A stretch of 64,000 nt of DNA from Polyangiaceae bacterium. GTDB lineage: Bacteria > Myxococcota_A > Polyangia > Polyangiales > Polyangiaceae. The notes below the pieces were generated by a model that saw nothing but the letters and a program-made list of their open reading frames with translations, was not told the DNA's origin and did no database searches. The translations under genes and the position numbers were made by a program. The stretch covers positions 1,029,501 through 1,093,500 of the forward strand of contig JAHBVX010000001.1 in NCBI GenBank assembly GCA_019637295.1, read 5' to 3'. Below are positions 17,345 through 33,989 of the stretch, one piece after another (positions within the stretch are counted from its first letter, which is position 1; each line of letters opens with the position of its first letter).

Positions 17345-20300
17345 TCAGCCCGCCAGCCGCCGCGAGCGCTCGCTCGACGCAGAGCGCCAAGCCTCGATGC
17401 GCAGCCGTGCGTGCTCCGGCAGCGGTAGCCTCGAGAGCCGCGCCAGCAGGTGCGGGGTGTGGTCACCCGCGCGGCTTCGCGCTCCGAACACGTCCGCTGC
17501 CGCCTCGAGGGACTCGAAGGCCTTGTCGGCTTCTCCCTGTGCCCACTCCAGCCACGCTCGCGTGAGCAAGAAGTGCTGTCGCGGTTCGGCTTCCTGGATC
17601 TGATACGCCGCCGCTCGCTCCAGTAGCTGGGCTGCGCCATCAACGTCGCGACGCGCGAGCGCGACCTGCGCGAGCAGCACCGTCGCCTCGAGCAGGCCCC
17701 AGGGATCGCCCATCTGGGTGTAGATCTCCAGGGCGCGGGTGGCGTGTAGCTCACCCATGTCCAGATCGTCCGTGTCGATACCGACCATGGCCAGCAGCCG
17801 CTCGGACCCCGCTTGGCCGCGAGGATTGCGCAGTGGCTCGAAGGCGCCGAGCGCGTCCTTGGCGCCGACCTCAGCGCTGTGAAAGTTCATCATGCGATGC
17901 TCCACGTGAGCCAGCGACACGTCCGCCTGCGCGATGCCCAGGCGATAGCCCGCTCGCTCGAACTCGGAGCGTGCCTCGAGGGTCAGCCGCTGGGCGCGCT
18001 CCGTCACACCCTCGGAGTGCTCGAGCCAGGAGAGGAGCAAGAGGCACTGCCCTCGGCCGAGGGGTTGTGACAGCAGGGCGAAGTGGGACTCGCCGGCGGT
18101 GACGACCTCGCGCGCTCGCTCGTAGTTGCCGAGCAAGTACTCGATCTCACCGAGCACGGCTTCGCACTGCGCCTGGCCGAGAACGTGTCCGAGTCGCGTG
18201 AAGATTTCGTGCGCCGCCTCCACCAGCGCGACTCCCTCGGCGCTGGTCCCCCGTTCGCTCGAGAGGTGGCCGAGCAACCGCAGGGTCTGCGCCAGGTTCT
18301 CTTCGTCACCCAGCTCCTCGAAGCGCTCGCGCGCGATTTCGGCGTGGGTCGTCGCCTCGTCCGCTCGCCCGAGATGCCTCAGGGCCTCGGCCTGCCAGCG
18401 ATGCTTGAGCGCCAGGGAGCGACCCTGTAGGTGCCCCTTGAGCAGCTCCAGATCGCCCAGGGTGGCCAGGGGTTCGCGAGCGCCGAGCCAAGCCGTGTCG
18501 AGGAAGGCGAACAGCAGCGCGGCGGCCCCGTCGGGCTCGCTGGCGTAGAGCAGATTGGCGACCCGTTGCCGCACGATTCGCCGGGTCGCCGAGGCTGGGT
18601 GGTGCACCAAGGCATCCGCCGCTGCCACGAAGATGGCCTTCGCGTCGGGTCGCGCCATCAAGCTGCTGAGCAAGTGTTCCTGCAGCAGCGCGTGGGGCCA
18701 CTGGTAGCGTCCGGAGCCGCGAGGCAGGATGATCTCGGCGTTCTGCAGGCTGACGATGGCGTCGTCGGCGGGCAGACCCAAGACCGTGAGCAGGGTGTGC
18801 AATGAGCCGCGCCGGATGTCCGCACCTAGCGTGGCCACCGCGTAGGCCGCCAGGCGATGCTGCTCGGGCATGGCGGAGACGCGACTGTCCCACAGCTCCG
18901 CGGTCGTCTGCGGCCTGACGCTGAGCACGTCGTCCGGGACTCGGTACACGCCGCTCGAGATCTTCATGTTCCCAGCGAGCGCCCAGGCGTGCAGCTGTTG
19001 CAGAGCGAACAGCGGATTGCCGCGGCTGCGGCGGGCTGCTTCTTGGACCGCGGCGTCCTCCAGGGGCAGCGAGGCGCGGAGCAACGACGCGGTGGTCTCC
19101 GCATCCATGCTCTTCACGTCCACCACGATGCCGTTCATCTCTTCCCGCAGCGCTCGGAGTCGCTCGGCCGCCGGTGTGCCGAGCTGCACGTCCTCGGAGC
19201 GCACGGTGGCCACGATCACGATGCGTTGGTCCGGCTCCTCACGGTGGATGCGCAGCAGGCCGTCGAAGGTCGTCTCGCTGGCGTGGTGCAGGTCGTCCAT
19301 GAAGAACAAGAGGGGCCGCCCGCGGGCGATTCGGCGGAGCGTGTAGCGAATCACCAAGCGCCGAGTCTCGAGGGTGTCCAGGGTGAAGCGGATCCCGGTT
19401 GGACCGACGGGCTTGTCGGCGGGCAGCGGCCGGATCCACTCGGCAGCGCCGGCCACCCAGGCGCGCCCGTTCTTGTCGTCGGTCCCGACCTTCCAGCGTG
19501 AGAGCAGGCTCTTCTCGATCGTGTCCCGCTCCGCACGCTCGAAGTTGAAGTACTGGGTCACGCCGCCGAGCATGCCGTCGAGGGGGCTCCGGATCGGGCG
19601 GTAGCGCGCGCGCAGCGGGATGATCGTGCCCTCTTCGTGCACCACCTCGCACAGCCACTCGGCGATGCGGCTCTTACCCACGCCCGCGGGGCCGACCAGG
19701 ATCACGAGGCGGTGGGGGGCGCCCACGCTCTCGATCACTTCGTCGCAGGCCTCGCGCAGCGTGCGCTTGACGTCGTCCCGGCCGACCAACGGACTCTGGC
19801 GGATGCTCAGCAGGCCCGTCGATCGTTGCTGTGCGGGACGCAGCTCCGGCGCGGACCCGCGCGGTCCCCCGGTCTGGCGCGTCGTGGGCGCGGCGGGTCG
19901 GTCGTAGCGCGGTAGCTTGGGGAACACATAGGCCGCGGGGTTCGTGTCTGGGCTCGGACGCCACTGTGCCCAGACGCCGCGTGCCTCCGCCGCGAACTCC
20001 CAGCGATCCCACGGTCGCTTGGCGAGCAGGCGATGGGCCGCGGCGCCGACGCCCGGCGGCGCGGCGATCGCCAGCTTGAGCTCGGGGATCTTGTCGAACG
20101 CGTGAAGGCGCAGGAGCTCCTTCGGATCCCCCGTGAAGACGCTGCGTCCGGAGAGCAGCTTGTACAAGATGCAGCCAAGCGCATACAGGTCCGTCGCGCC
20201 GCAGACGTGGTGCATCTCGTGCTGGATTTGCTCCGGCGCCATGTAGCCGGGGGTGCCGGCCCCGGCGTGGGGCGCGAACTCCAGCGCTTTGGCGCCGTCG

Positions 20301-21061
20301 AGCCGCTCATCGTGGGGGTCTTGCTTCAGCCAGGCCAGGCCGAAGTCCAGGATGTGAACCTTGGGCGGCTCCCCTGGGACTTCCTCCACCAACACGTTGG
20401 ATGGCTTCAAGTCCCCGTGGATGATGCCGCGCGCGTGTGCGTGGGCCAGCGCGCCCAGGATCTGATCGACCACCGACCAGATCAGCTCGAACTGATTGGG
20501 GACCTGCGACAGATCGTGCAGCGAGATACCGTCCGCCAGATCCATCGCCAGGTACGGCGTGCCATCAGCAAGCTGCCCGAAGTCGCGTGCTCGCACGATG
20601 CAGGGATGGTCGAGAGCCGCCAGCGCGCGGGCCTCCTTGTAGAACCACATCACGTACTCCGCCGCGAGCTTGCTCTCCGGCGGAATCACGCGCTTGAGCG
20701 CGACCTGCTGATCCGTGGCCAGGTCCCGACAGCGGTAGACGATGCCCATGCCGCCCTCGCCGATGACCGCCTCCACCTCGTAGCGGTCCGCGAGGATGTG
20801 ACCCGGGAGGACGGCGGATGGCGTGGTCACCGGCGCGAGCTCCGGCGCCGAGACGCTCAAGATGGACCCCTCTTTGAGCGAGGCTGCGCTGGGGATGCTC
20901 GGCGGCGCGCTGTCGTCGTCCTCCGCCTCGGGGGCCGCGGGCATCCCGCTCAGTCGCGACGCGGCGCGGCTGCGTGCGCCCGCGTCCGAGCCGCCGGCGT
21001 CTGCCGGGTCGGGGGGCGGGCTGCTGGGCGCCGTCAGAGGTTTTTGATCCCCGTTGGCCAT
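17345..21061 (-). CDS. Kinase-ATPase-TPR signalling protein (HGD kinase)
   Basis: A 1238-residue multidomain protein. Residues 90-380: Ser/Thr kinase with Gly loop GEGGMGIVY, Lys123 in ALKRVI, catalytic loop HGDLKPSN (His215-Gly216-Asp217; Gly in place of Arg) and ILDFGLA. Residues 424-700: AAA-type ATPase with SPLVGRDD, Walker A GPAGVGKS (457-464) and Walker B LLFFMDDLHHAS. Then about 500 residues of Ala/Leu/Glu-rich helical repeats (TPR-like, for example VALVEAAHEIFTRLGHVLGQAQC). The layout matches the predicted-ATPase or LuxR-like STK proteins of myxobacteria. No membrane segment. I start at ATG 21061 (MANGDQKPLT); ATG 21151 would add 30 residues without recognisable features. It is divergent from glyA. 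Confidence 0.9.
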   Translation of the reverse strand: MANGDQKPLTAPSSPPPDPADAGGSDAGARSRAASRLSGMPAAPEAEDDDSAPPSIPSAASLKEGSILSVSAPELAPVTTPSAVLPGHILADRYEVEAVIGEGGMGIVYRCRDLATDQQVALKRVIPPESKLAAEYVMWFYKEARALAALDHPCIVRARDFGQLADGTPYLAMDLADGISLHDLSQVPNQFELIWSVVDQILGALAHAHARGIIHGDLKPSNVLVEEVPGEPPKVHILDFGLAWLKQDPHDERLDGAKALEFAPHAGAGTPGYMAPEQIQHEMHHVCGATDLYALGCILYKLLSGRSVFTGDPKELLRLHAFDKIPELKLAIAAPPGVGAAAHRLLAKRPWDRWEFAAEARGVWAQWRPSPDTNPAAYVFPKLPRYDRPAAPTTRQTGGPRGSAPELRPAQQRSTGLLSIRQSPLVGRDDVKRTLREACDEVIESVGAPHRLVILVGPAGVGKSRIAEWLCEVVHEEGTIIPLRARYRPIRSPLDGMLGGVTQYFNFERAERDTIEKSLLSRWKVGTDDKNGRAWVAGAAEWIRPLPADKPVGPTGIRFTLDTLETRRLVIRYTLRRIARGRPLLFFMDDLHHASETTFDGLLRIHREEPDQRIVIVATVRSEDVQLGTPAAERLRALREEMNGIVVDVKSMDAETTASLLRASLPLEDAAVQEAARRSRGNPLFALQQLHAWALAGNMKISSGVYRVPDDVLSVRPQTTAELWDSRVSAMPEQHRLAAYAVATLGADIRRGSLHTLLTVLGLPADDAIVSLQNAEIILPRGSGRYQWPHALLQEHLLSSLMARPDAKAIFVAAADALVHHPASATRRIVRQRVANLLYASEPDGAAALLFAFLDTAWLGAREPLATLGDLELLKGHLQGRSLALKHRWQAEALRHLGRADEATTHAEIARERFEELGDEENLAQTLRLLGHLSSERGTSAEGVALVEAAHEIFTRLGHVLGQAQCEAVLGEIEYLLGNYERAREVVTAGESHFALLSQPLGRGQCLLLLSWLEHSEGVTERAQRLTLEARSEFERAGYRLGIAQADVSLAHVEHRMMNFHSAEVGAKDALGAFEPLRNPRGQAGSERLLAMVGIDTDDLDMGELHATRALEIYTQMGDPWGLLEATVLLAQVALARRDVDGAAQLLERAAAYQIQEAEPRQHFLLTRAWLEWAQGEADKAFESLEAAADVFGARSRAGDHTPHLLARLSRLPLPEHARLRIEAWRSASSERSRRLAG

Positions 21062-21283
21062 GGGCGGCGCGAGTGTAGTCCGAGCCCCGACCGCGTCGAG
21101 AGCTGGAGCCGGAAAGCCAAGTCTACCCGATTTCATCAATGGTTGTCTCATCTTGAAGGCAGCGCGCCCAGCCCGAGGTCCGCCCCACCGAACGGCGAAC
21201 CCCCGAGGGCCCCGAGATCTGCCCCGAGCCCCGGCGAAGGTCGTCAGCGCTGCCGAGCTGCGTTAAGACCCGGCCAACATCCC

Positions 21284-22546
21284 ATGGCTACTTTGCACGA
21301 CCCGCCGCTCGCCCAGCGTGACCCCGAGATCGCCCGCCTGATCGCCGCCGAGGAGCTGCGCGAGACGGTCAAGCTCCGGCTCATCCCGAGTGAGAACTAC
21401 GTGTCCCGCGCGGTGCTCGAAGCGTCCGGCTCGGTGCTCACGAACAAGTACTCGGAGGGCTACGCCGGCAAGCGATACTACGAGGGTCAGCAGATCATCG
21501 ACCAGGTGGAGGAGCTGGCCTGCGCGCGGCTCAAGACTCTGTTCGGCGCCGACCACGTGAACGTGCAGCCCTATAGCGGCAGTCCCGCGAACCTGGCGGT
21601 CTATCTTGCGTTCTGTCAGCCTGGGGATCCCATCATGGGGCTCGGGCTGCCCGCCGGTGGGCACCTCACGCACGGCTGGAACGTGAGCATCACCGGCAAG
21701 TACTTCCAGAGCCACGCCTACGGCGTACGTCGGGACGACCACCGCATCGACTTCGACCAGGTGCGGAGCCTGGCGCGGGAGCACAAGCCGAAGATCATGT
21801 GGTGCGGAACCACGGCGTACCCGCGCATCATCGAGTTCGACAAGTTCCGAGAGATCGCGGACGAGGTGGGCGCGATCCTGTGCGCTGACATTGCGCACAT
21901 CTCCGGGCTGGTCGCCGCCGGAGTCCACCCTTCGCCGATCGGCATCGCCAAGGTGGTCACCAGCACGACCCACAAGACCCTGAGGGGACCGCGCGGCGGC
22001 ATGATCCTGTGCGACGCTGAGCACGCCAAGGCCATCGATCGCGCGGTCTTCCCCGGGCTGCAGGGCGGGCCGCACAACCACACGACCGCGGGCATCGCCG
22101 TGGCTGCGCTCGAAGCGCAGCAGCCGGCCTTCGAAGCCTACGCTCGCGCCGTCGTGGACAACGCCAAGGTGCTGGGCGAGGCGCTGCTCGCCAAGGGGGT
22201 CAGCTTGGTCACCGGCGGCACGGACAACCACCTCTTGCTGCTCGACCTCACGCCCAAGAACATCCCGGGCAAGGTCGCCGCCCAGGCGCTGGATCGCGCG
22301 GGCATCGTCGCCAACTACAACTCGATCCCGTTCGATCCCCGTAAGCCCTTCGATCCCTCGGGGCTTCGCATCGGCACGCCCGCCATCACCAGCCGCGGGA
22401 TGGGGGCGGACGAGATGCGCCGCCTCGCCGACTGGATGGATCAGGTCCTGTGCGCACCCGACGATCCGGCCACCATCACGCGAGTCGCGGGCGAGGTGGA
22501 GCAACTCTGCCGGCAGTTCCCCCCGCCGGGGATCCCCCAGCGCTGA
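21284..22546 (+). CDS. glyA: Serine hydroxymethyltransferase
   Basis: Interconverts serine and glycine while charging tetrahydrofolate with a one-carbon unit; PLP-dependent, cytosolic. The 420-residue protein shows LIPSENYVS, KYSEGYAGKRYYEG, VNVQPYSGSPANLAVY, HISGLVAAG, and the PLP lysine in TSTTHKTLRGPRGG. Length and motif order match bacterial GlyA. The start at ATG 21284 gives the usual short N-terminus. The 223 bp ahead of it contain no gene, only the divergent promoter region shared with the large kinase, with an AT-rich island at about 21120-21160. Confidence 0.97.
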   Translation: MATLHDPPLAQRDPEIARLIAAEELRETVKLRLIPSENYVSRAVLEASGSVLTNKYSEGYAGKRYYEGQQIIDQVEELACARLKTLFGADHVNVQPYSGSPANLAVYLAFCQPGDPIMGLGLPAGGHLTHGWNVSITGKYFQSHAYGVRRDDHRIDFDQVRSLAREHKPKIMWCGTTAYPRIIEFDKFREIADEVGAILCADIAHISGLVAAGVHPSPIGIAKVVTSTTHKTLRGPRGGMILCDAEHAKAIDRAVFPGLQGGPHNHTTAGIAVAALEAQQPAFEAYARAVVDNAKVLGEALLAKGVSLVTGGTDNHLLLLDLTPKNIPGKVAAQALDRAGIVANYNSIPFDPRKPFDPSGLRIGTPAITSRGMGADEMRRLADWMDQVLCAPDDPATITRVAGEVEQLCRQFPPPGIPQR

Positions 22547-22560
22547 GCGCCGGGGGTTTC
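22533..22560 (+). terminator. Weak candidate terminator after glyA
   Basis: CCCCC (22534-22538) and GGGGG (22552-22556) enclose a nearly self-complementary core that overlaps the glyA stop; only three T follow. It could attenuate read-through into the TerB-like gene 46 bp downstream. Confidence 0.3.
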
Positions 22561-22592
22561 CTCCCGGCTGCATTGCCTCTAGTCTGGCCGGT

Positions 22593-23075
22593 ATGGCAAC
22601 TCGACTTCCAGCGAGCGCGTTCTTGGCGATCACGGCGGTGGCGTGGGCGGATGGCCGCATGCGAAAGGAGGAGGTCGCCGGGCTCATGCGGGCGGCCCGC
22701 GCGTGCGGCGTCGACGGCGAAGAACTCTCGCGGGTGGAGCGCGCGGCCGCCGAGGGCATCCAGCTCGAAGACGTGGACATCGCCGAGATGAACCGCTGGG
22801 AGCGCGCGCTGACCTTCGCGTTCGCCAATTGGCTCGCGAAGCTCGACGGGGTCGTCAACGCGGCCGAGCTGGCCACGCTGCGTGTGCTGGGTGAGCGGCT
22901 CGAACTCGAGCCACCGCGCCAGCAAGCGGCGCGCTCCGCGGTGTTCGACATCGCGGCGCAGCCCGAGGGCCATCGGCCGGAGCGCTTCGACTTCGCGCTG
23001 CTCGAGGAGAAGCTCGCGGAGAAGCTGCCCGGCTCCTTCCGGGAGTCCCTCATCCCGCCCGAGCGAAAGCCCTGA
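22593..23075 (+). CDS. TerB-like helical protein
   Basis: A 160-residue all-helical protein. AVAWADGRMRKEEVAGLMRA and the second WLAKLDGVVNAAELATLRVLG resemble the paired acidic metal-binding motifs of TerB/DUF533 proteins. There is no signal peptide. Family members are linked to tellurite resistance and stress signalling, but tellurite resistance genes are absent here, so the role is open. It follows glyA and is convergent with the PP2C gene. A longer TerB-like domain occurs in the M48 peptidase at 50-52 kb. Confidence 0.7.
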   Translation: MATRLPASAFLAITAVAWADGRMRKEEVAGLMRAARACGVDGEELSRVERAAAEGIQLEDVDIAEMNRWERALTFAFANWLAKLDGVVNAAELATLRVLGERLELEPPRQQAARSAVFDIAAQPEGHRPERFDFALLEEKLAEKLPGSFRESLIPPERKP

Positions 23076-23185
23076 GCCCCGACCGACGAGCGTACGCAGT
23101 CGACGACTCCCCGTGTCCGTCGAGCTCGTGGGGGACGCTTTCCTTGTCGGTCCGGCGCGGAAACGGCGCGGCGCGCACGACCCCG

Positions 23186-24082
23186 TTAGTCGCCCTTCAG
23201 GACTCGGGCGACCAGCACGGTGACGTTGTCCGTCGCGCCGCGGTCGAGCGTCATCTGCACGAAGCGCTCACAGGCAGCGCTGGCGTCGGCCGCGTCGCGG
23301 AGCACCCCGGTGATCTCGTCGTCTTCCACGTGTTTGTTCAGTCCGTCGGTGCAGAGCAAGATGGTGTCGCCGAGCTCCAGCGGCATCTTGTGTACCTCCG
23401 GGACCAGCTCGTCCTCGCTGGTGCCCAGCGCGTTCCATAGGATGTGATGCAGGGGCGAGCTGGCCTCCAGCGGGGCAAACCCCTGTGCGCGCATCTGCTC
23501 GGCCACGGTGTGATCCGTCGTCAGCCGCGCCAAGAGGCCGTTGCGCAAGATGTAGCAGCGGCTGTCGCCGACGTGGGCAACGTACATGCGCGGCCATAGC
23601 AGGTAGGCCATGGTGAGCGTCGTGCCCATGTTGGGCGTCCCTCCCGGGAGCACGGCCGCCTCCCGGACCTCGAGGTTGCTGGTGGCCAGCGCGGTGGACA
23701 GCTGCTGGCGCACGCCCGGCAGCGACGCCCGCGGCGACTGCTCCAGGGATTGTGCGTGTCTGGCCGCCCAGGGCATCACGCTCGAGACGTAGTCCGCGAT
23801 GGCTCTGATCGCCACGCGGCTCGCCACGTCTCCGCCGCCCTGTCCTCCCATGCCGTCCGCGACCACGAGCAGCCTGCCGGCCGAGCCACCCGCCAGCCAG
23901 TGGAGCTCGGACTCGGGCAGGCTCGACTGCTGAACCTCCAGCGAGCGGCTGAGCTCGGCGATCAAGAAGGCGTCCTCGTTCGCTTTGCGAACCAGTCCGC
24001 GATCCGTCAGCCCGCACGCGATCACTTTCGCGGACTCGGTGGCCATCACGGCATCCGGCGGAACGGTGGGTAGCTCGTCCAT
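23186..24082 (-). CDS. PP2C-type protein phosphatase
   Basis: A 298-residue metal-dependent Ser/Thr phosphatase. Motifs: LTDRGLVRKANEDAFLI, LLVVADGMGGQGGGDVAS (metal-binding Asp and Gly), TTLTMAYLL, VAHVGDSRCYILRNGLLARLTTDH, LLCTDGLNKHV and ATDNVTVLVAR. All the acidic metal ligands appear present. It has no membrane segment and is next to two kinase genes, so it probably reverses their phosphorylation. The start at ATG 24082 is chosen because the upstream frame loses coding character. Confidence 0.95.
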   Translation of the reverse strand: MDELPTVPPDAVMATESAKVIACGLTDRGLVRKANEDAFLIAELSRSLEVQQSSLPESELHWLAGGSAGRLLVVADGMGGQGGGDVASRVAIRAIADYVSSVMPWAARHAQSLEQSPRASLPGVRQQLSTALATSNLEVREAAVLPGGTPNMGTTLTMAYLLWPRMYVAHVGDSRCYILRNGLLARLTTDHTVAEQMRAQGFAPLEASSPLHHILWNALGTSEDELVPEVHKMPLELGDTILLCTDGLNKHVEDDEITGVLRDAADASAACERFVQMTLDRGATDNVTVLVARVLKGD

Positions 24083-24200
24083 CGTGGGGAGTATCGCCCA
24101 TTGTCGGTCAATTGAGCCTCGCGGGAAAGGGGGACTCGGCGTCAAGGGCCCGGGGGAAACTAGCGTGTCGCGAGACCCCCCGCTGCGCCGGGACCCTTGG

Positions 24201-25898
<1,698 letters not shown>

Positions 25899-25967
25899 GG
25901 TTGGCCCGCAGCCTACCAGGGAAGGGCGCGGAACCGGGCCAAACACTTCGCCTCGGCTCGCTCCGGC

Positions 25968-26354
25968 TCAGCCGCAGCGGCCCGACTTGCAGCGGTCCCC
26001 GCACTCGGCGGCAGAGCACAGGCACACCTCGGCGTGCAGCGTGCTCTGCTGGCACTCTGGGCGGTTCGGATTGGCGAGGCAGCCCTTGCACGCGAGGTCT
26101 GCCAGGCACGCCGTCAGCTGTCCGCCGCATTCGTCTTGAGCGCACTCGCGACAGTCGAGGTTTGCAGCGCCCGCGGTCCCCGCCGCGCCCGCGCTTCCGC
26201 TGCTGCCGGCGGCTCCCCCGCTTCCGCCGGCGCCCGACCCGCCGGCGGCGCCTCCGCTGCCGCCCCCGAGGTTCCCGTCGTCATCGCTTCCGCAGGCCGC
26301 CAAACCCAGCCCGCAAACCCAGACCATCAACGCAAGAGCTCTGGAAGTCATCAT
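25968..26354 (-). CDS. Small Cys-rich lipoprotein with Gly/Ser tether
   Basis: A 128-residue predicted lipoprotein. MMTSRALALMVWVCGLGLAAC is the signal with an LAAC lipobox, followed by a roughly 45-residue Gly/Ser/Ala tether and then ten or more cysteines in about 60 residues, starting DCRECAQDECGG. The cysteine spacing (C-x2-C, C-x4-C) suggests a small disulfide-stabilised extracellular domain. No family recognised. Two ATG codons in tandem begin the gene. Confidence 0.75.
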   Translation of the reverse strand: MMTSRALALMVWVCGLGLAACGSDDDGNLGGGSGGAAGGSGAGGSGGAAGSSGSAGAAGTAGAANLDCRECAQDECGGQLTACLADLACKGCLANPNRPECQQSTLHAEVCLCSAAECGDRCKSGRCG

Positions 26355-26491
26355 TGCGCTCGTTCTCGCAAGACACGCGCCAAGCGCGAACCGCTCAAAG
26401 CGCGGCGCACCTGCGTCACGAGCGACGCAGGTGCCCTCGGTCGAGCACCGAGTCGCGCGTCGCCGCCGACGCGGCGCGAGTTCGAGCCTCG

Positions 26492-27346
26492 TCAGCCGAG
26501 GTACCCGGCGACGTCGCCTACCGACGCTCGGCGCGCCGGATCGGTGCGGAGCAGAGCGCTGCACAAGGCGTCCAGCTCTCGCGGGACGTCGGGCAGGAGC
26601 AGGCTCGGTGGCGGCGCCCCCACCGTGCGCTTGCGAAGCAGCACCTCCTGAGCGTTGCCCGCGAACGGGGACTCGCCGGTCAGCGCGCGGAACAAGAGCA
26701 CCCCGAGCGCGTAGGCGTCCCACGCCGCGTGGGGCGCGTCGTGGGATACCTGCTCTGGGGCCATGCTCGTCACGCAGGCGGTCCGTGCCGATGGCGAAAC
26801 CGGCTGACCGCTGAAGCACACGTGGTCATAGTCGATGAGCACCACTCGCCCCGCGCACACCAGCACGTTGTCCGCCCTCACGTCGCGATGGACCAGCCCA
26901 TTGCGGTGGAGCTCGCCGAGGGCGCCAGCGAGCTGCGGGAGACTCCGGCGCAAGCGGTCGTAGCCCCGGGGCCCGGGGCTCGTGAAGCGACTGCGTCCGG
27001 GCGCCTGCACCGTCTGGCCGAAGGCCAGCGGCAGCGAGCGGCTCGGCTCGCGTTCGTCAGGCGCCGGCTCGCTGTGGCCCCGCACGAAGCTGACGAGGTC
27101 GCAGCCTTCGCACAGCTCCAGAACGACGTAGCGAGGTGACCCCGACAGCGAGAGTTCGTGGACCTGCATCAAGTTCGGATGCCGAAGCGAGAGCAGTGCG
27201 GGCCATGCGTTGGGCGCCACCCAGCCGTCGTCGTGGAGCAGCTTGATGGCGACCGAAGTCCCGCTGGGACTCTGCGCGCGATGGACCGTGCCCGTGGCGC
27301 CACCGCCCAGGCGCTCAGCGAGCAGGTAGCCGCCGAGCACGCTCAT
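26492..27346 (-). CDS. Atypical Ser/Thr kinase (DYD variant)
   Basis: A 284-residue kinase domain without any other domain. Gly loop GGGATGTVH, ATP lysine in VAIKLL (Lys35), catalytic loop VHRDVRADN (His153-Arg154-Asp155, Asn160), but the metal motif is IDYDHV (Asp172-Tyr-Asp) in place of DFG. APE appears as MAPEQVSHD. Asp155, Asn160 and Asp172 are kept, so catalysis is possible but likely altered. The ATG overlaps the astB stop (ATGA), so translation is coupled to the arginine-catabolic gene upstream. This pairing is unusual and may be the point of interest of this operon. Confidence 0.85.
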   Translation of the reverse strand: MSVLGGYLLAERLGGGATGTVHRAQSPSGTSVAIKLLHDDGWVAPNAWPALLSLRHPNLMQVHELSLSGSPRYVVLELCEGCDLVSFVRGHSEPAPDEREPSRSLPLAFGQTVQAPGRSRFTSPGPRGYDRLRRSLPQLAGALGELHRNGLVHRDVRADNVLVCAGRVVLIDYDHVCFSGQPVSPSARTACVTSMAPEQVSHDAPHAAWDAYALGVLLFRALTGESPFAGNAQEVLLRKRTVGAPPPSLLLPDVPRELDALCSALLRTDPARRASVGDVAGYLG

Positions 27347-28665
27347 GGCGAGCGCTGAAAGTCGTACACCGCGCCGAGCCCCAAGAGCCCGGTCAGCTCG
27401 TCGAGCGCGTCCAAGCTCTCGCGGTAGAGGGCGGGGTCGGCGAGATCCGTCACCCTCATCCGGTCCCGGTAGTGTCTCTCCACCCAGGACTGAAGCGCGG
27501 ACAGGCGCGCGTCGTTCAGCACCACGTCGCTCGCGAGTCCTGCGAGCTCCGCCTCCGTCAGCTCTAGCCTCAGGCGCAGGCAGGCAGGTCCGCCGCCGTT
27601 CTTCATCGAGCCGCTCACCCCGACGAACGCGATCTCCCGAGCCAGCTCGCACTCCTCGCGGGCTCGCTGCAAGAACGCGTGGGCCGCCGCGCAGTCGCGG
27701 CTCTCTTCCGGGGCCACGATGACCAGCGCACCGTCGGTGGTCCTGACCAGCTCCGAGTTGAAGGCGTAGCTGCTCACCGCATCCCGAAGCGACAGCTCCT
27801 GCGAACGCGCGAGCACGACGCTGAGCTCGGCGCCCAGTCGCTGCGACAGCGACCCGGCGAAGGCATCGACGTCGACGAAGGCGGCCTCGTGTAGGAGCAG
27901 GACGCTCCCGTTGCCGACGGCGAGCACGTCGCTGTGAAACGCTCCGGCGTCGATACCTTCGGGTGCCTGCTGCCACAACAGGAGCCGCGACGGCTCGAGC
28001 AGCCCCATGCGCGCCACGGCGGCGCTCGCCTCGAGGGTCTGCCGAGCCGAGTGTCGTGACGGCTTGGCTGCGTCGCCAAGCGCGCTCCGGCCCCAACCGA
28101 ACACGTGAATCCGGGCGCGGCTCGAGTGCAGCAGCAGGTGGTTGGCCGCGCCCTCGTCACTGAAGTGGGCAGCCGCTGGCAGCGGCGGGTGCACGGCGTA
28201 CAGGGTCGCGTCCTGGAATATGGCCGAGAGTACCCGCTCGGTCGTCTCTGCTTCGAACGAACGATGGGACTGAGCCACGAGGTTCGCGACCACCAAGTGC
28301 AGCCGCCCGTCGCGCGAGTCGCAGGATGGAATCACCGTTGCGGCGTTGGCCGCCCACATGGAGGATGCGCTGCTCACCAGCGTGAGCAGGCCGGGCTCCT
28401 GCGCAGCGCGCTCGATCACGCGCTCGTCCGAGCCTTCGAACCCCAACCTGCGCAGCACCTGCACCGCGGGGCGAGGCTGCGGGGGAAGTACACCTCGAGT
28501 CGTTCCCAGTGCCAGCATGTGGCGGAGCTTGGTCAACCCCTCGAGCGCGGCGCGCTTCGGGTTGGACACTTCGCCCGCGTGGCGCTGCGCCGCGAGGTTG
28601 CCGCTCGCGAGCCCTGCGTGCGTGTGGGTGGGACCAACCAAGCCGTCGAGGCACAGCTCCGGCAC
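27343..28665 (-). CDS. astB: N-succinylarginine dihydrolase
   Basis: Hydrolyses N2-succinylarginine to succinylornithine, ammonia and CO2 in the arginine succinyltransferase pathway. The 440-residue protein has the family motifs DGLVGPTHTHAGL, SSMWAANAATVIPS, HFSDEGAANH, the catalytic histidine region FHSDVLAVGNG and the nucleophile in SMKNGGGPACLRLR (Cys362). Length matches E. coli AstB (447). No astA, C, D or E is near. It lies between a DUF4202 gene and an atypical kinase gene with a 3-bp gap and a 4-bp overlap, so a regulated operon is likely. Confidence 0.93.
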   Translation of the reverse strand: MPELCLDGLVGPTHTHAGLASGNLAAQRHAGEVSNPKRAALEGLTKLRHMLALGTTRGVLPPQPRPAVQVLRRLGFEGSDERVIERAAQEPGLLTLVSSASSMWAANAATVIPSCDSRDGRLHLVVANLVAQSHRSFEAETTERVLSAIFQDATLYAVHPPLPAAAHFSDEGAANHLLLHSSRARIHVFGWGRSALGDAAKPSRHSARQTLEASAAVARMGLLEPSRLLLWQQAPEGIDAGAFHSDVLAVGNGSVLLLHEAAFVDVDAFAGSLSQRLGAELSVVLARSQELSLRDAVSSYAFNSELVRTTDGALVIVAPEESRDCAAAHAFLQRAREECELAREIAFVGVSGSMKNGGGPACLRLRLELTEAELAGLASDVVLNDARLSALQSWVERHYRDRMRVTDLADPALYRESLDALDELTGLLGLGAVYDFQRSP

Positions 28666-28668
28666 TGG

Positions 28669-29262
28669 CTAGCCCTCGCTCGCCAACGCCCGGTCGAGGA
28701 GCGCGCCGAGGGCCGGTGGCAAACTCGCCTTCAGCGCCAGCGCGTGCTCTTGCCCGCGCTCGCTCATCTTCTTCCAGGTGCTGAGCAGGATGTGCACGAC
28801 CTTGTCCTCGTCGTGCTTGGCCGCGAAGACGGCGAGCTCGCGCTCGAGAAAGCTCAGGCACAACGCGTCTTCCATGGTCTGCACGTCGGGGTACTGCTTG
28901 ATCCCCTGCTTGAGGATGATGCGGCGCACTTCCGCCATGACGCGCTTGTCGTAGCCGGCCCGCGCCAGCACTTGCTCCGCTTCGCTGGCGTGGAAGCGCG
29001 CTGCTGCCTTGCGCCACTCCAGGTAGCCGGTGCGACCCTCCGGGAAGTCGTCCCGAGGAATACGGAAGCGCATCAGGTGCTGCGCGCGCGCGGCGAGGCG
29101 CAGCGCCTCGGACGCCTCTGGATCGAGGCGCTCCACCCAGCCGCTCAGCCACTCGGCGTGTACCAGCTGCCGCGGCCGACGCTGGCCCTCTACCAGCACC
29201 GTCGTCGGGTCCTCGGCGTTGAGCCGGTCCAGCTCGCGGATCGCGGTCTCGAACGACGACAC
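28669..29262 (-). CDS. DUF4202 domain protein
   Basis: A 197-residue helical protein matching DUF4202 by its opening (AIRELDRLNAEDPTTVLVEGQ), the LAARAQHLMRFRIPRDDFPEGRTGYLEWR middle section and the C-terminal LERELAVFAAKHDEDKVVHIL. The conserved His and acidic positions recall HD-like metal sites, but I cannot prove this. There is no signal or membrane segment. It is the first gene of an operon with astB and a kinase, and is divergent from recN. Function is unknown. Confidence 0.85.
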   Translation of the reverse strand: MSSFETAIRELDRLNAEDPTTVLVEGQRRPRQLVHAEWLSGWVERLDPEASEALRLAARAQHLMRFRIPRDDFPEGRTGYLEWRKAAARFHASEAEQVLARAGYDKRVMAEVRRIILKQGIKQYPDVQTMEDALCLSFLERELAVFAAKHDEDKVVHILLSTWKKMSERGQEHALALKASLPPALGALLDRALASEG

Positions 29263-29365: not shown

Positions 29366-29390
29366 GTTCAGTAATTGAGTATTACTGAAC
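29366..29390. promoter_or_regulatory. Perfect inverted repeat before recN, candidate SOS operator
   Basis: GTTCAGTAAT (29366-29375), 5-bp spacer TGAGT, and ATTACTGAAC (29381-29390) form a perfect 10-bp inverted repeat that ends two bases before the recN ATG. The GTTCAG core resembles the LexA-binding core I recall for Myxococcus. recN is an SOS gene in many bacteria, so a LexA-type site is the best guess. An AT-rich promoter-like stretch lies just upstream (29312-29345). Confidence 0.55.
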
Positions 29391-32192: not shown

Positions 32193-33083
32193 TCAAAAGG
32201 CCGTGGCCGGTGGTTCGGCGAACTGCCCGGGGAAGGGATCGGCGTTGCGGCGGCGATTCACCTCTTCGTCGGTCCAGGGGAAACGGGAGCCGCGCTCCTG
32301 GAAGAACGCCACGCCGATGACGCCCACGTTGCGGTCATCGCCCTTCTGGGCGGCATAGGAGCCACGGACCGAGCCGAAGCGGAAGGCGGCGACAGTGTCG
32401 CTGCTGCGGCGGAAGCCGTCGATCTCCACGGTAGAGAACGGGGCGACGATGTAGCCGCGGTTCGCGAAGGTTCCTCGCCGACCGTTGATGACGTCGAGGC
32501 CGTCGACGGTGGCCACGGCTTCGAAGCGCCCCCCGGTGTTGTTCTTGATCTGGATGATGTAGCGCTGGTTGTGCTCGCCAATCACGTGGGTGGTGCCCCC
32601 GGAGGTGAAGCCCTCGAGCGGTCGGCCGGAGCTGTCGAGCAGTCGAACCGTGAGCGCGCCGTTCGACAGCCGCGCGGAGCCGTCGCTGAAGGAGCTGATA
32701 CCGTCTCGGCGGGCCATCGCCTGGACCCCGGTCCGGTCGTTGTAGAAGAGCTTGGTGACCGCGAAGGGGGTCTGAGCCTCGCGGAAGAAGGGGGAGCTGC
32801 TCACCCGGCTCTCGCGGTTCTCGCCCCACTGGGTGCCGAGCCCGGGGCGGCTGTCCGCGTCCGTCGAGCGCTCCTGCTGAGCCTGCGGGCTGGCGGCGCC
32901 CGCGGAATCCTCGGCAGGTGCCTCGGCCTCGCCGCCGTAGCCGGGCCCGTACTCCGCAGGCGCGGTGCCCGGCGCGGAGCTCGCCTCGGGGGACTTCGCC
33001 ATGCCCGGGTGCGAAGCGCTGCCGGTGCAGCCCACCGCGAAAAGCCCAATCATTCCAGCAATCGTCGCAAGCTTCGTGTTCAT
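32193..33083 (-). CDS. Predicted lipoprotein, unknown family
   Basis: A 296-residue protein. MNTKLATIAGMIGLFAVGCTG is a lipoprotein signal; then a Pro/Ala/Gly/Glu-rich region (to about 75) with GLGTQWGENRESRVSSSPF, and a C-terminal domain of about 190 residues with beta-rich character (GALTVRLLDSSGRPLEGF, HNQRYIIQIKNNTG, FEAVATVDGLDVINGRRG). I know this GLGTxWGE type only as an uncharacterised family. A strong SD (GGAGGA) six bases before the ATG and a perfect intrinsic terminator suggest it is well expressed on its own. Confidence 0.8.
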   Translation of the reverse strand: MNTKLATIAGMIGLFAVGCTGSASHPGMAKSPEASSAPGTAPAEYGPGYGGEAEAPAEDSAGAASPQAQQERSTDADSRPGLGTQWGENRESRVSSSPFFREAQTPFAVTKLFYNDRTGVQAMARRDGISSFSDGSARLSNGALTVRLLDSSGRPLEGFTSGGTTHVIGEHNQRYIIQIKNNTGGRFEAVATVDGLDVINGRRGTFANRGYIVAPFSTVEIDGFRRSSDTVAAFRFGSVRGSYAAQKGDDRNVGVIGVAFFQERGSRFPWTDEEVNRRRNADPFPGQFAEPPATAF

Positions 33084-33161: not shown

Positions 33162-33989
33162 TCAGCCGATTCGCCCGGCGTGGGTGTAGACCCGAAACCC
33201 GTCCTGACGGGAGAAGCCGACCAGCGTCACGCCGAGCCTCTCGGCGGTCCCCACCGCCAGTGAGCTCGGCGCGGAGACGGCCACCACCAGGGGGATCTTC
33301 GCGCAGCACGCCTTGTGTACGATTTCGAAGCTGGCGCGCCCGCTGACGAACAACGCCAGGGAGGAGGCGGGGAGCAGACCGTCGAGCAGGAGGCGTCCGA
33401 TCACCTTGTCCACCGCGTTGTGCCGGCCAACGTCCTCGCGAACCACGGCGAAGCCCGCTGGGGTCGCCGCCGCCGCGGCGTGCACGCCGCCGGTGCTGCG
33501 GAACACGGTCTGCCAGTCCCTCAGGTCGGACGAGAGGCGCAGGATGGCCTCCCGAGGAAAGCACAGCTCGCTCTCGACCACGCCACGCGCCTCGAGCAGC
33601 GAATCGATGGAGCGACGACCGCACACGCCGCACGCGCTCGTGGTGAGCGAGCTGCGGCGCTGGTCGTCATCGATCGACAGCGACACGCCGGCTGCCGGGG
33701 TCACGTCGATCACGTTGCCACGGGAGTCCTCATCGCCGCGGCTGCAGTGGGTCACCGTGCCCAGGTCCCCCACGCCGTCGATCACACCCTCTGCGAACAG
33801 GAGGCCGGCCGCGAGCTCCACGTCGTGACCGGGGGTGCGCAGCGTCACGCCCAGGGTGTCGCCACAAACCCGGATCTCGAGCGGCTCCTCGATCGCGACG
33901 CCAGCCGACTCCTCGCAACGGTTCCCGTCCGTGTCCACCCGCAGGGTATCGACCACCGCGCAGCCCGCGCGCAGCGCGTCCCGGGTCAT
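33162..33989 (-). CDS. fdhD: Formate dehydrogenase sulfur carrier FdhD
   Basis: Transfers sulfur from the IscS desulfurase to the molybdenum cofactor of formate dehydrogenase. The 275-residue protein has EEPLEIRV, TPGHDVELAAGLLFAEGVI, the redox pair TSACGVCGR (Cys120/Cys123) and the C-terminal VSGRASFEIVHKACCAKIP and QDGFRVYTH. No formate dehydrogenase gene is in the window. It is the last gene of an overlapping run behind dapE and a lipoprotein gene (ATGA overlap at the start). Confidence 0.96.
   Translation of the reverse strand: MTRDALRAGCAVVDTLRVDTDGNRCEESAGVAIEEPLEIRVCGDTLGVTLRTPGHDVELAAGLLFAEGVIDGVGDLGTVTHCSRGDEDSRGNVIDVTPAAGVSLSIDDDQRRSSLTTSACGVCGRRSIDSLLEARGVVESELCFPREAILRLSSDLRDWQTVFRSTGGVHAAAAATPAGFAVVREDVGRHNAVDKVIGRLLLDGLLPASSLALFVSGRASFEIVHKACCAKIPLVVAVSAPSSLAVGTAERLGVTLVGFSRQDGFRVYTHAGRIG

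Follow-up and report, generated by a model that had tools for sequence, protein, structure and literature searches.

A conserved astB-kinase gene pair and a probably relocated DUF4202 gene in a Polyangiaceae genome

Three genes on the minus strand of a Polyangiaceae genome, encoding a DUF4202 protein, an AstB homologue and a small protein kinase, follow one another so closely that one may ask whether their products work together or whether the run came about in some other way. We addressed this question in a window of 64,000 nucleotides, the whole stretch of DNA that was analysed (GenBank assembly GCA_019637295.1, contig JAHBVX010000001.1, positions 1,029,501 to 1,093,500), and in other genomes. 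Below, G000 is the genome of the window, other G-numbers are other genomes, L-numbers are loci, and family and phylum are those of the window's genome.

Layout of the locus and distribution of its genes

Gene calls and Pfam matches confirmed what a sequence-only reading had described, namely a 3-bp gap between DUF4202 and astB followed by a 4-bp ATGA overlap between astB and the kinase gene (Table 1). A GAGGG, read by eye, stands 7 bases before the GTG start of astB. Between recN and DUF4202 we noticed by eye a perfect inverted repeat (29366-29390; 10-base arms, 5-base spacer), which lies 3 bases ahead of the likely recN ATG (29393) and resembles an SOS-type operator. A 10-kb section of the window (17345-27346) holds three genes for protein kinases together with one for a PP2C phosphatase.

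Table 1. Features of the DUF4202-astB-kinase locus, in positions of the window
Feature	Position	Strand	Description
glyA, serine hydroxymethyltransferase	21284..22534	+	tblastn extent; near astB in 7 genomes, 4 family genera
Short Hanks-type protein kinase, kinase domain only	26492..27346	-	284 aa; Pkinase 88.4 bits (cut-off 31.7)
astB, N-succinylarginine dihydrolase homologue	27343..28665	-	440 aa, GTG start; Pfam AstB 532.8 bits (cut-off 27)
Gap between DUF4202 stop and astB start	28666..28668	-	3 bp; putative junction of two once-separate blocks
DUF4202 (PF13875)	28669..29262	-	197 aa, GTG start; Pfam 209 bits (cut-off 35.1); predicted HD-like all-helical fold; family elsewhere linked to nitrite/nitrate metabolism
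c1	32193..33083	-	near DUF4202 in 9 genomes, 5 family genera; lipoprotein-like by eye; no Pfam match
fdhD	33162..33989	-	near c1-DUF4202 block in G000, G242, G102, G254

DUF4202 was found in 38, AstB in 31 and both in 13 of 235 genomes sampled across the phylum. Among 108 genomes of the family, DUF4202 occurred in 35, of which 19 had matches that we read from the scores as strong, and AstB in 36; both occurred in 15 when the 16 genomes with weak DUF4202 matches were left out. Because G000 and G102 are in both samples, 26 distinct genomes carry both genes. The two are neighbours in only two of these, G000 and G242, the one congener found, and both genomes have the full order DUF4202-astB-kinase. 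In the other 24, AstB was absent from the fetched DUF4202 flanks and DUF4202 from the fetched AstB flanks (1.5 kb in most cases, with one side shorter at six loci; 12 of the 24 read over longer stretches). A scan of a species-genome collection returned at least 576 relatives of DUF4202, and the 80 best loci, an uneven sample because they were picked by similarity to one query, held no AstB in their flanks, which reached up to 8 kb. The proposal that DUF4202 is a conserved or general partner of AstB was thus rejected; the gene order itself recurs, but within one genus.

At the level of whole genomes, the two genes nevertheless occur together more often than expected, with kinship ignored in all of the following tests. 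AstB was present in 15 of the 19 family genomes with strong DUF4202 matches (6.3 expected, p = 9e-6) and in 13 of the 38 DUF4202 genomes of the phylum sample (5.0 expected, p = 2e-4); by genus, the co-occurrence held in 9 of 10 genera (p = 4e-4, from a table filled by hand). With weak matches included, 16 family genomes had both, against 11.7 expected (p = 0.048). AstB and NirB likewise co-occurred above expectation (16 versus 10.0, p = 0.007), and so did DUF4202 and NirB in the family, both for strong matches (11 of 19 versus 5.3, p = 0.002) and for all matches (20 of 35 versus 9.7, p = 5e-6). A true tie between DUF4202 and AstB may lie behind these figures.

Synteny of the two blocks

In G242 the order fdhD-c1-(recN)-DUF4202-astB-kinase-PP2C-glyA is the same as in the window, and the spacing between DUF4202 and astB is 351 bp as against 3 bp. 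Comparison with other genomes resolved this stretch into two separately conserved blocks, c1-DUF4202 and astB(-kinase)-glyA, which are joined in the window's genus. Besides the window and G242, c1 lies near DUF4202 in G102, G254, G259, G292, G293, G294 and G296; with the first two counted in, this makes 8 of the 15 long DUF4202 loci that were read, plus a short locus in the case of G294. Counted in the same way, glyA lies near astB in 7 of 22 long AstB loci, the five besides the window and G242 being those of G102, G071, G248, G051 and G111. As the remaining long loci lack the respective neighbour, neither link holds throughout. In G254 the two blocks fall on different contigs, as they do in G102, an assembly of five contigs, where the two in question measure 3.2 and 2.5 Mb. 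Directly after DUF4202, G102 carries c13 and a NirA-like siroheme reductase gene, at the place that astB holds in the window's genus, and the same two genes lie about 4 kb or less from DUF4202 in G259, G293 and G296. This is most simply read as the result of a rearrangement that the ancestor of the window's genus underwent, with a break just after DUF4202; on this comparison, DUF4202 probably came next to astB and the kinase gene through genome rearrangement.

The c13 genes encode a family of about 200 aa (L138:5020-5613, L132:9226-9834 and relatives), which accompanied the NirA-like reductase in each of the 10 phylum genomes where that reductase was seen. One member gave no Pfam match and two members gave no NCBIfam match.

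The link between astB and the kinase gene has a wider distribution. We surveyed the downstream side of 56 astB loci, with flanks of mostly 1.5 kb and less than 900 bp downstream in 4 of them; G289 from the family and G047 from outside had no usable AstB locus and were left out. A kinase orthologue stood directly downstream of astB on the same strand in 5 of 35 family genomes (G000, G242, G051, G254 and G249), which represent three genera, and in none of 21 genomes outside the family. The orthologues in G242, G254 and G051 are about 38-42% identical to the window kinase. The astB stop and the kinase start overlap by 4 bp in three of the five (ATGA in G000, GTGA in G254 and G051); a ten-codon reading frame with ATGA at both ends bridges the two genes in G242 (L124:9790-9830), and G249 showed no clear overlap. 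Since position and overlap are kept in few genomes, the pair is conserved within a small clade. The distribution indicates that this pair is older than the three-gene order.

The kinase is atypical in reading HRD and DYD, with DYD in place of DFG, as the sequence-only reading had noted. This is no hallmark of the group: all of the orthologues examined differ from the window copy at this motif, with DYG in G242, G254 and G051 and DFG in G249, so that the glycine is missing only in G000. Sequence and alignment indicate that the catalytic Lys, the HRD Asp and the metal-binding Asp are kept. In the gammaproteobacterial loci L197 and L201 (8001-10700), the gene after DUF4202 is of SirB type, as named by Pfam on the L197 copy, and then comes a gene of 527-530 aa resembling the window kinase.

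AstB and DUF4202 in their wider context

We then considered whether AstB could serve a canonical Ast pathway in G000. Residues 3-439 align to 1ynf, the solved chain of E. coli AstB, at about 47% identity, and the catalytic residues Glu171, His244 and Cys362 are kept. The protein passes the NCBI subfamily model NF009789 (539.7 versus a cut-off of 452) and falls below the equivalog cut-off of TIGR03241 (501.7 versus 538.3 bits). The genome holds a single AstB, a single DUF4202 and a single AstA homologue. It had been claimed that AstA, AstC, AstD and AstE are missing here, which holds for the astB neighbourhood among the genes given names there; an astA elsewhere, which the earlier reading had suggested looking for, was found in divergent form on another contig (G000:C25:206937-207947; L003, L004; PF04958, 306.2 bits). 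This homologue lies under both NCBI cut-offs, that of the AOST subfamily (TIGR03243; 207.1 versus 284.35) and that of the AstA equivalog (TIGR03244; 181.6 versus 391). No ast gene was seen beside it; its neighbours encode a peptide-release factor, an acyl-CoA ligase-like protein (by eye), a class II tRNA synthetase, an FtsX-type transporter and an AAA ATPase. None of 11 AstD matches reached the equivalog cut-off (best 255.6 versus 579.3 bits), and the AstE hybrid domain, present in 2 of 108 family genomes, was not found in G000, where the AstE catalytic domain gave two weak matches (52.3 and 50.4 bits). A complete ast cluster elsewhere in the genome was thus rejected for the three genes searched, AstA, AstD and AstE, and by the same searches the canonical pathway looks incomplete.

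AstA homologues are found in 83 of the 108 family genomes and accompany AstB in 34 of the 36 genomes that have it. As 49 of the 83 carry a divergent AstA but no AstB, these homologues may serve another role. In G253, astB and the AstA homologue are 1.5 kb apart, with an apparent astD between them (by eye). A literature search found nothing on succinylarginine in myxobacteria, and the sole match for succinylarginine dihydrolase plus Myxococc concerned Caulobacter.

For DUF4202, a literature search found nothing that names DUF4202 or PF13875, and nothing for nirD, HD domain, nitrite reductase and unknown function combined. Its predicted structure (pLDDT 97.0, pTM 0.91) resembles the HD-superfamily chain 2pq7 (VIA Z 12.9, rmsd 3.9, 155 residues aligned). 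Foldseek gave a best E of 0.04 and no match at E 0.001 or better. Sequence relatives among solved structures were rejected as not credible, with none at E 1 in one search and a best E of 0.36 in another. The invariant residues include Q61-H62, R65, R70, W83-R84, H91, E131-D132 and C135, and no HD dipeptide appears among the invariant columns of 26 and 41 sequences.

Among the best 80 loci, 52 are from Bacteroidota as counted from record titles, and a nitrate or nitrite reductase match was found in 39 of these, against 2 of the 28 others. The tblastn counts were 38 loci for NirB, 37 for NirD and 40 for NasA, and they overlap because NasA and NirB have a domain in common; no more than 40 of the 80 loci had any of the three. 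Full-length clustering placed a NirB group in 36 loci and a NirD group in 31, and in 32 loci the end of NirD lies within 400 bp of DUF4202. Recurrent neighbours, named by Pfam on one representative each and more finely by eye, are a PilJ-type sensor kinase, a NarL-type regulator, an MFS (NarK-like) transporter and CobA. Within the phylum, 9 of 48 DUF4202 loci, belonging to families f1, f18, f22, f29 and f33, carry a NirA-like gene (8 loci) or a NirB gene (1 locus), in most cases no more than 1.5 kb away.

Five of 23 plasmid records with DUF4202 were also looked at, one of which, from Halomonas, carried no annotation. On the Hymenobacter volaticus plasmid, DUF4202 adjoins cobA and a nitrate reductase follows two genes on; on that of Roseibium aggregatum it is flanked by a Crp/Fnr regulator gene on one side and nor-type genes on the other, and a nitrite reductase lies at a distance of 6 kb. 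The Terrarubrum and Pseudoalteromonas plasmid neighbourhoods showed no nitrite or nitrate reductase link. A Crp/Fnr-like gene, recognised by eye, precedes DUF4202 in the gammaproteobacterial loci L178, L197, L201 and L206. From the model and these neighbourhoods, we read DUF4202 as an HD-like protein of nitrite/N-oxide metabolism with a putative function. In the window, no nitrite reductase stands beside it, and G000 has no NirB above cut-off (8 of 26 candidates scored), so DUF4202 may do something else there.

A composite locus and its relation to known systems

Taken together, these results favour, with a probability of roughly 0.6, a composite locus in which a relocated DUF4202 block has been joined to a conserved astB-kinase pair. 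The older unit would be astB followed by a small Ser/Thr-type kinase gene, translated through the stop/start overlap within a conserved glyA neighbourhood, and a rearrangement in the window's genus, the direction of which is our reading of the synteny, would have brought the c1-DUF4202 block, in the same orientation, to the place immediately upstream of it. The AstB reaction releases two ammonia and CO2 from N2-succinylarginine; here the substrate is most likely this compound or a close acyl-arginine, supplied by the divergent AstA whose gene lies on another contig. The kinase would be produced in step with AstB and most likely tunes either AstB or the use of arginine. DUF4202 has a predicted HD-like fold and belongs to a family that serves nitrite/nitrate metabolism elsewhere; here no reductase gene stands next to it, and its joint transcription with astB is probably only a secondary effect.

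A true three-part module, with DUF4202 acting on an Ast intermediate as an HD-like hydrolase, for instance in place of AstE, and with the kinase regulating the pair, would account for the co-occurrence of DUF4202 and AstB, the compact same-strand layout and the rarity of the AstE hybrid domain in the family. It is very unlikely, given that the two genes adjoin in one genus only, with a 351-bp gap in the congener, that AstB was missing from all of the best 80 of at least 576 outside DUF4202 relatives, whose family is tied to nitrite and nitrate reductases instead, and that G000 has weak AstE catalytic-domain matches of its own. We consider it unlikely, too, that the kinase is a chance neighbour with no functional tie to AstB. 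The local crowding of kinase and phosphatase genes and the 30 of 35 examined family genomes with no such kinase beside astB would fit this, but position and strand are kept in three genera despite the low identity of the kinases, and the 4-bp overlap is kept in three of five.

It also seems doubtful that AstB has changed its substrate to arginine itself or to a different acyl-arginine: its score under the equivalog cut-off, the far lower scores of the AstA homologue and the failure to find AstD above cut-off or the AstE hybrid domain point that way, whereas the identity to E. coli AstB, the retained catalytic residues, the NF009789 score and the company of an AstA homologue in nearly all AstB genomes of the family point to the original reaction. 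The composite reading keeps one part of what had been proposed from the sequence: since the coupling of astB to the kinase is kept, in three genera, and the Ast pathway looks incomplete, AstB may be used in a regulated or modified way. Nor was that proposal refuted on its own terms, an order confined to this genome together with a complete ast cluster elsewhere: the order was found in one congener as well, and no complete ast cluster came to light in the searches for AstA, AstD and AstE. The original observation was right, the three-way partnership mostly not. A bolder and quite improbable extension would make astB-kinase a phospho-controlled arginine-ammonia switch and DUF4202 an unrecognised HD-like component of nitrite/N-oxide metabolism, the joined operon tying organic to inorganic nitrogen.

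These findings offer, for an unstudied family that is seen beside NirBD, NirA-like and nor-type genes, a role that can be tested, together with a predicted fold and a few invariant residues; they provide a conserved case of a catabolic enzyme gene overlapping a small kinase gene, and they suggest that a tight three-gene run can stem from rearrangement and not from long-standing partnership.

Compared with known systems, AstB resembles that of the Ast pathway (PF04996; 1ynf) in its full length, its Glu, His and Cys and an AstA homologue in the same genome, and differs in being coupled to a kinase and in standing apart from other ast genes, in a genome where AstD stayed below the equivalog cut-off and the AstE hybrid domain was not found. 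The kinase resembles Hanks-type kinases (PF00069) in its glycine-rich loop, VAIK lysine, HRD Asp and Asn, and first Asp of the DFG position, all read by eye; it differs in consisting of the kinase domain only, in the DYD of G000 and in a C-helix Glu that was not evident by eye. The predicted fold of DUF4202 is like that of HD-superfamily hydrolases (YpgQ 5dqv, 2pq7 and Mesh1 3nr1), whose motif is H...HD...D, whereas DUF4202 has Q61-H62, H91 and E131-D132 in its place. Finally, the window copy belongs to the same family as the DUF4202 proteins of Bacteroidota nirBD clusters and keeps all of their invariant residues, but it stands apart from any adjoining nitrite reductase, in a genome with no NirB above cut-off, and adjoins astB instead.
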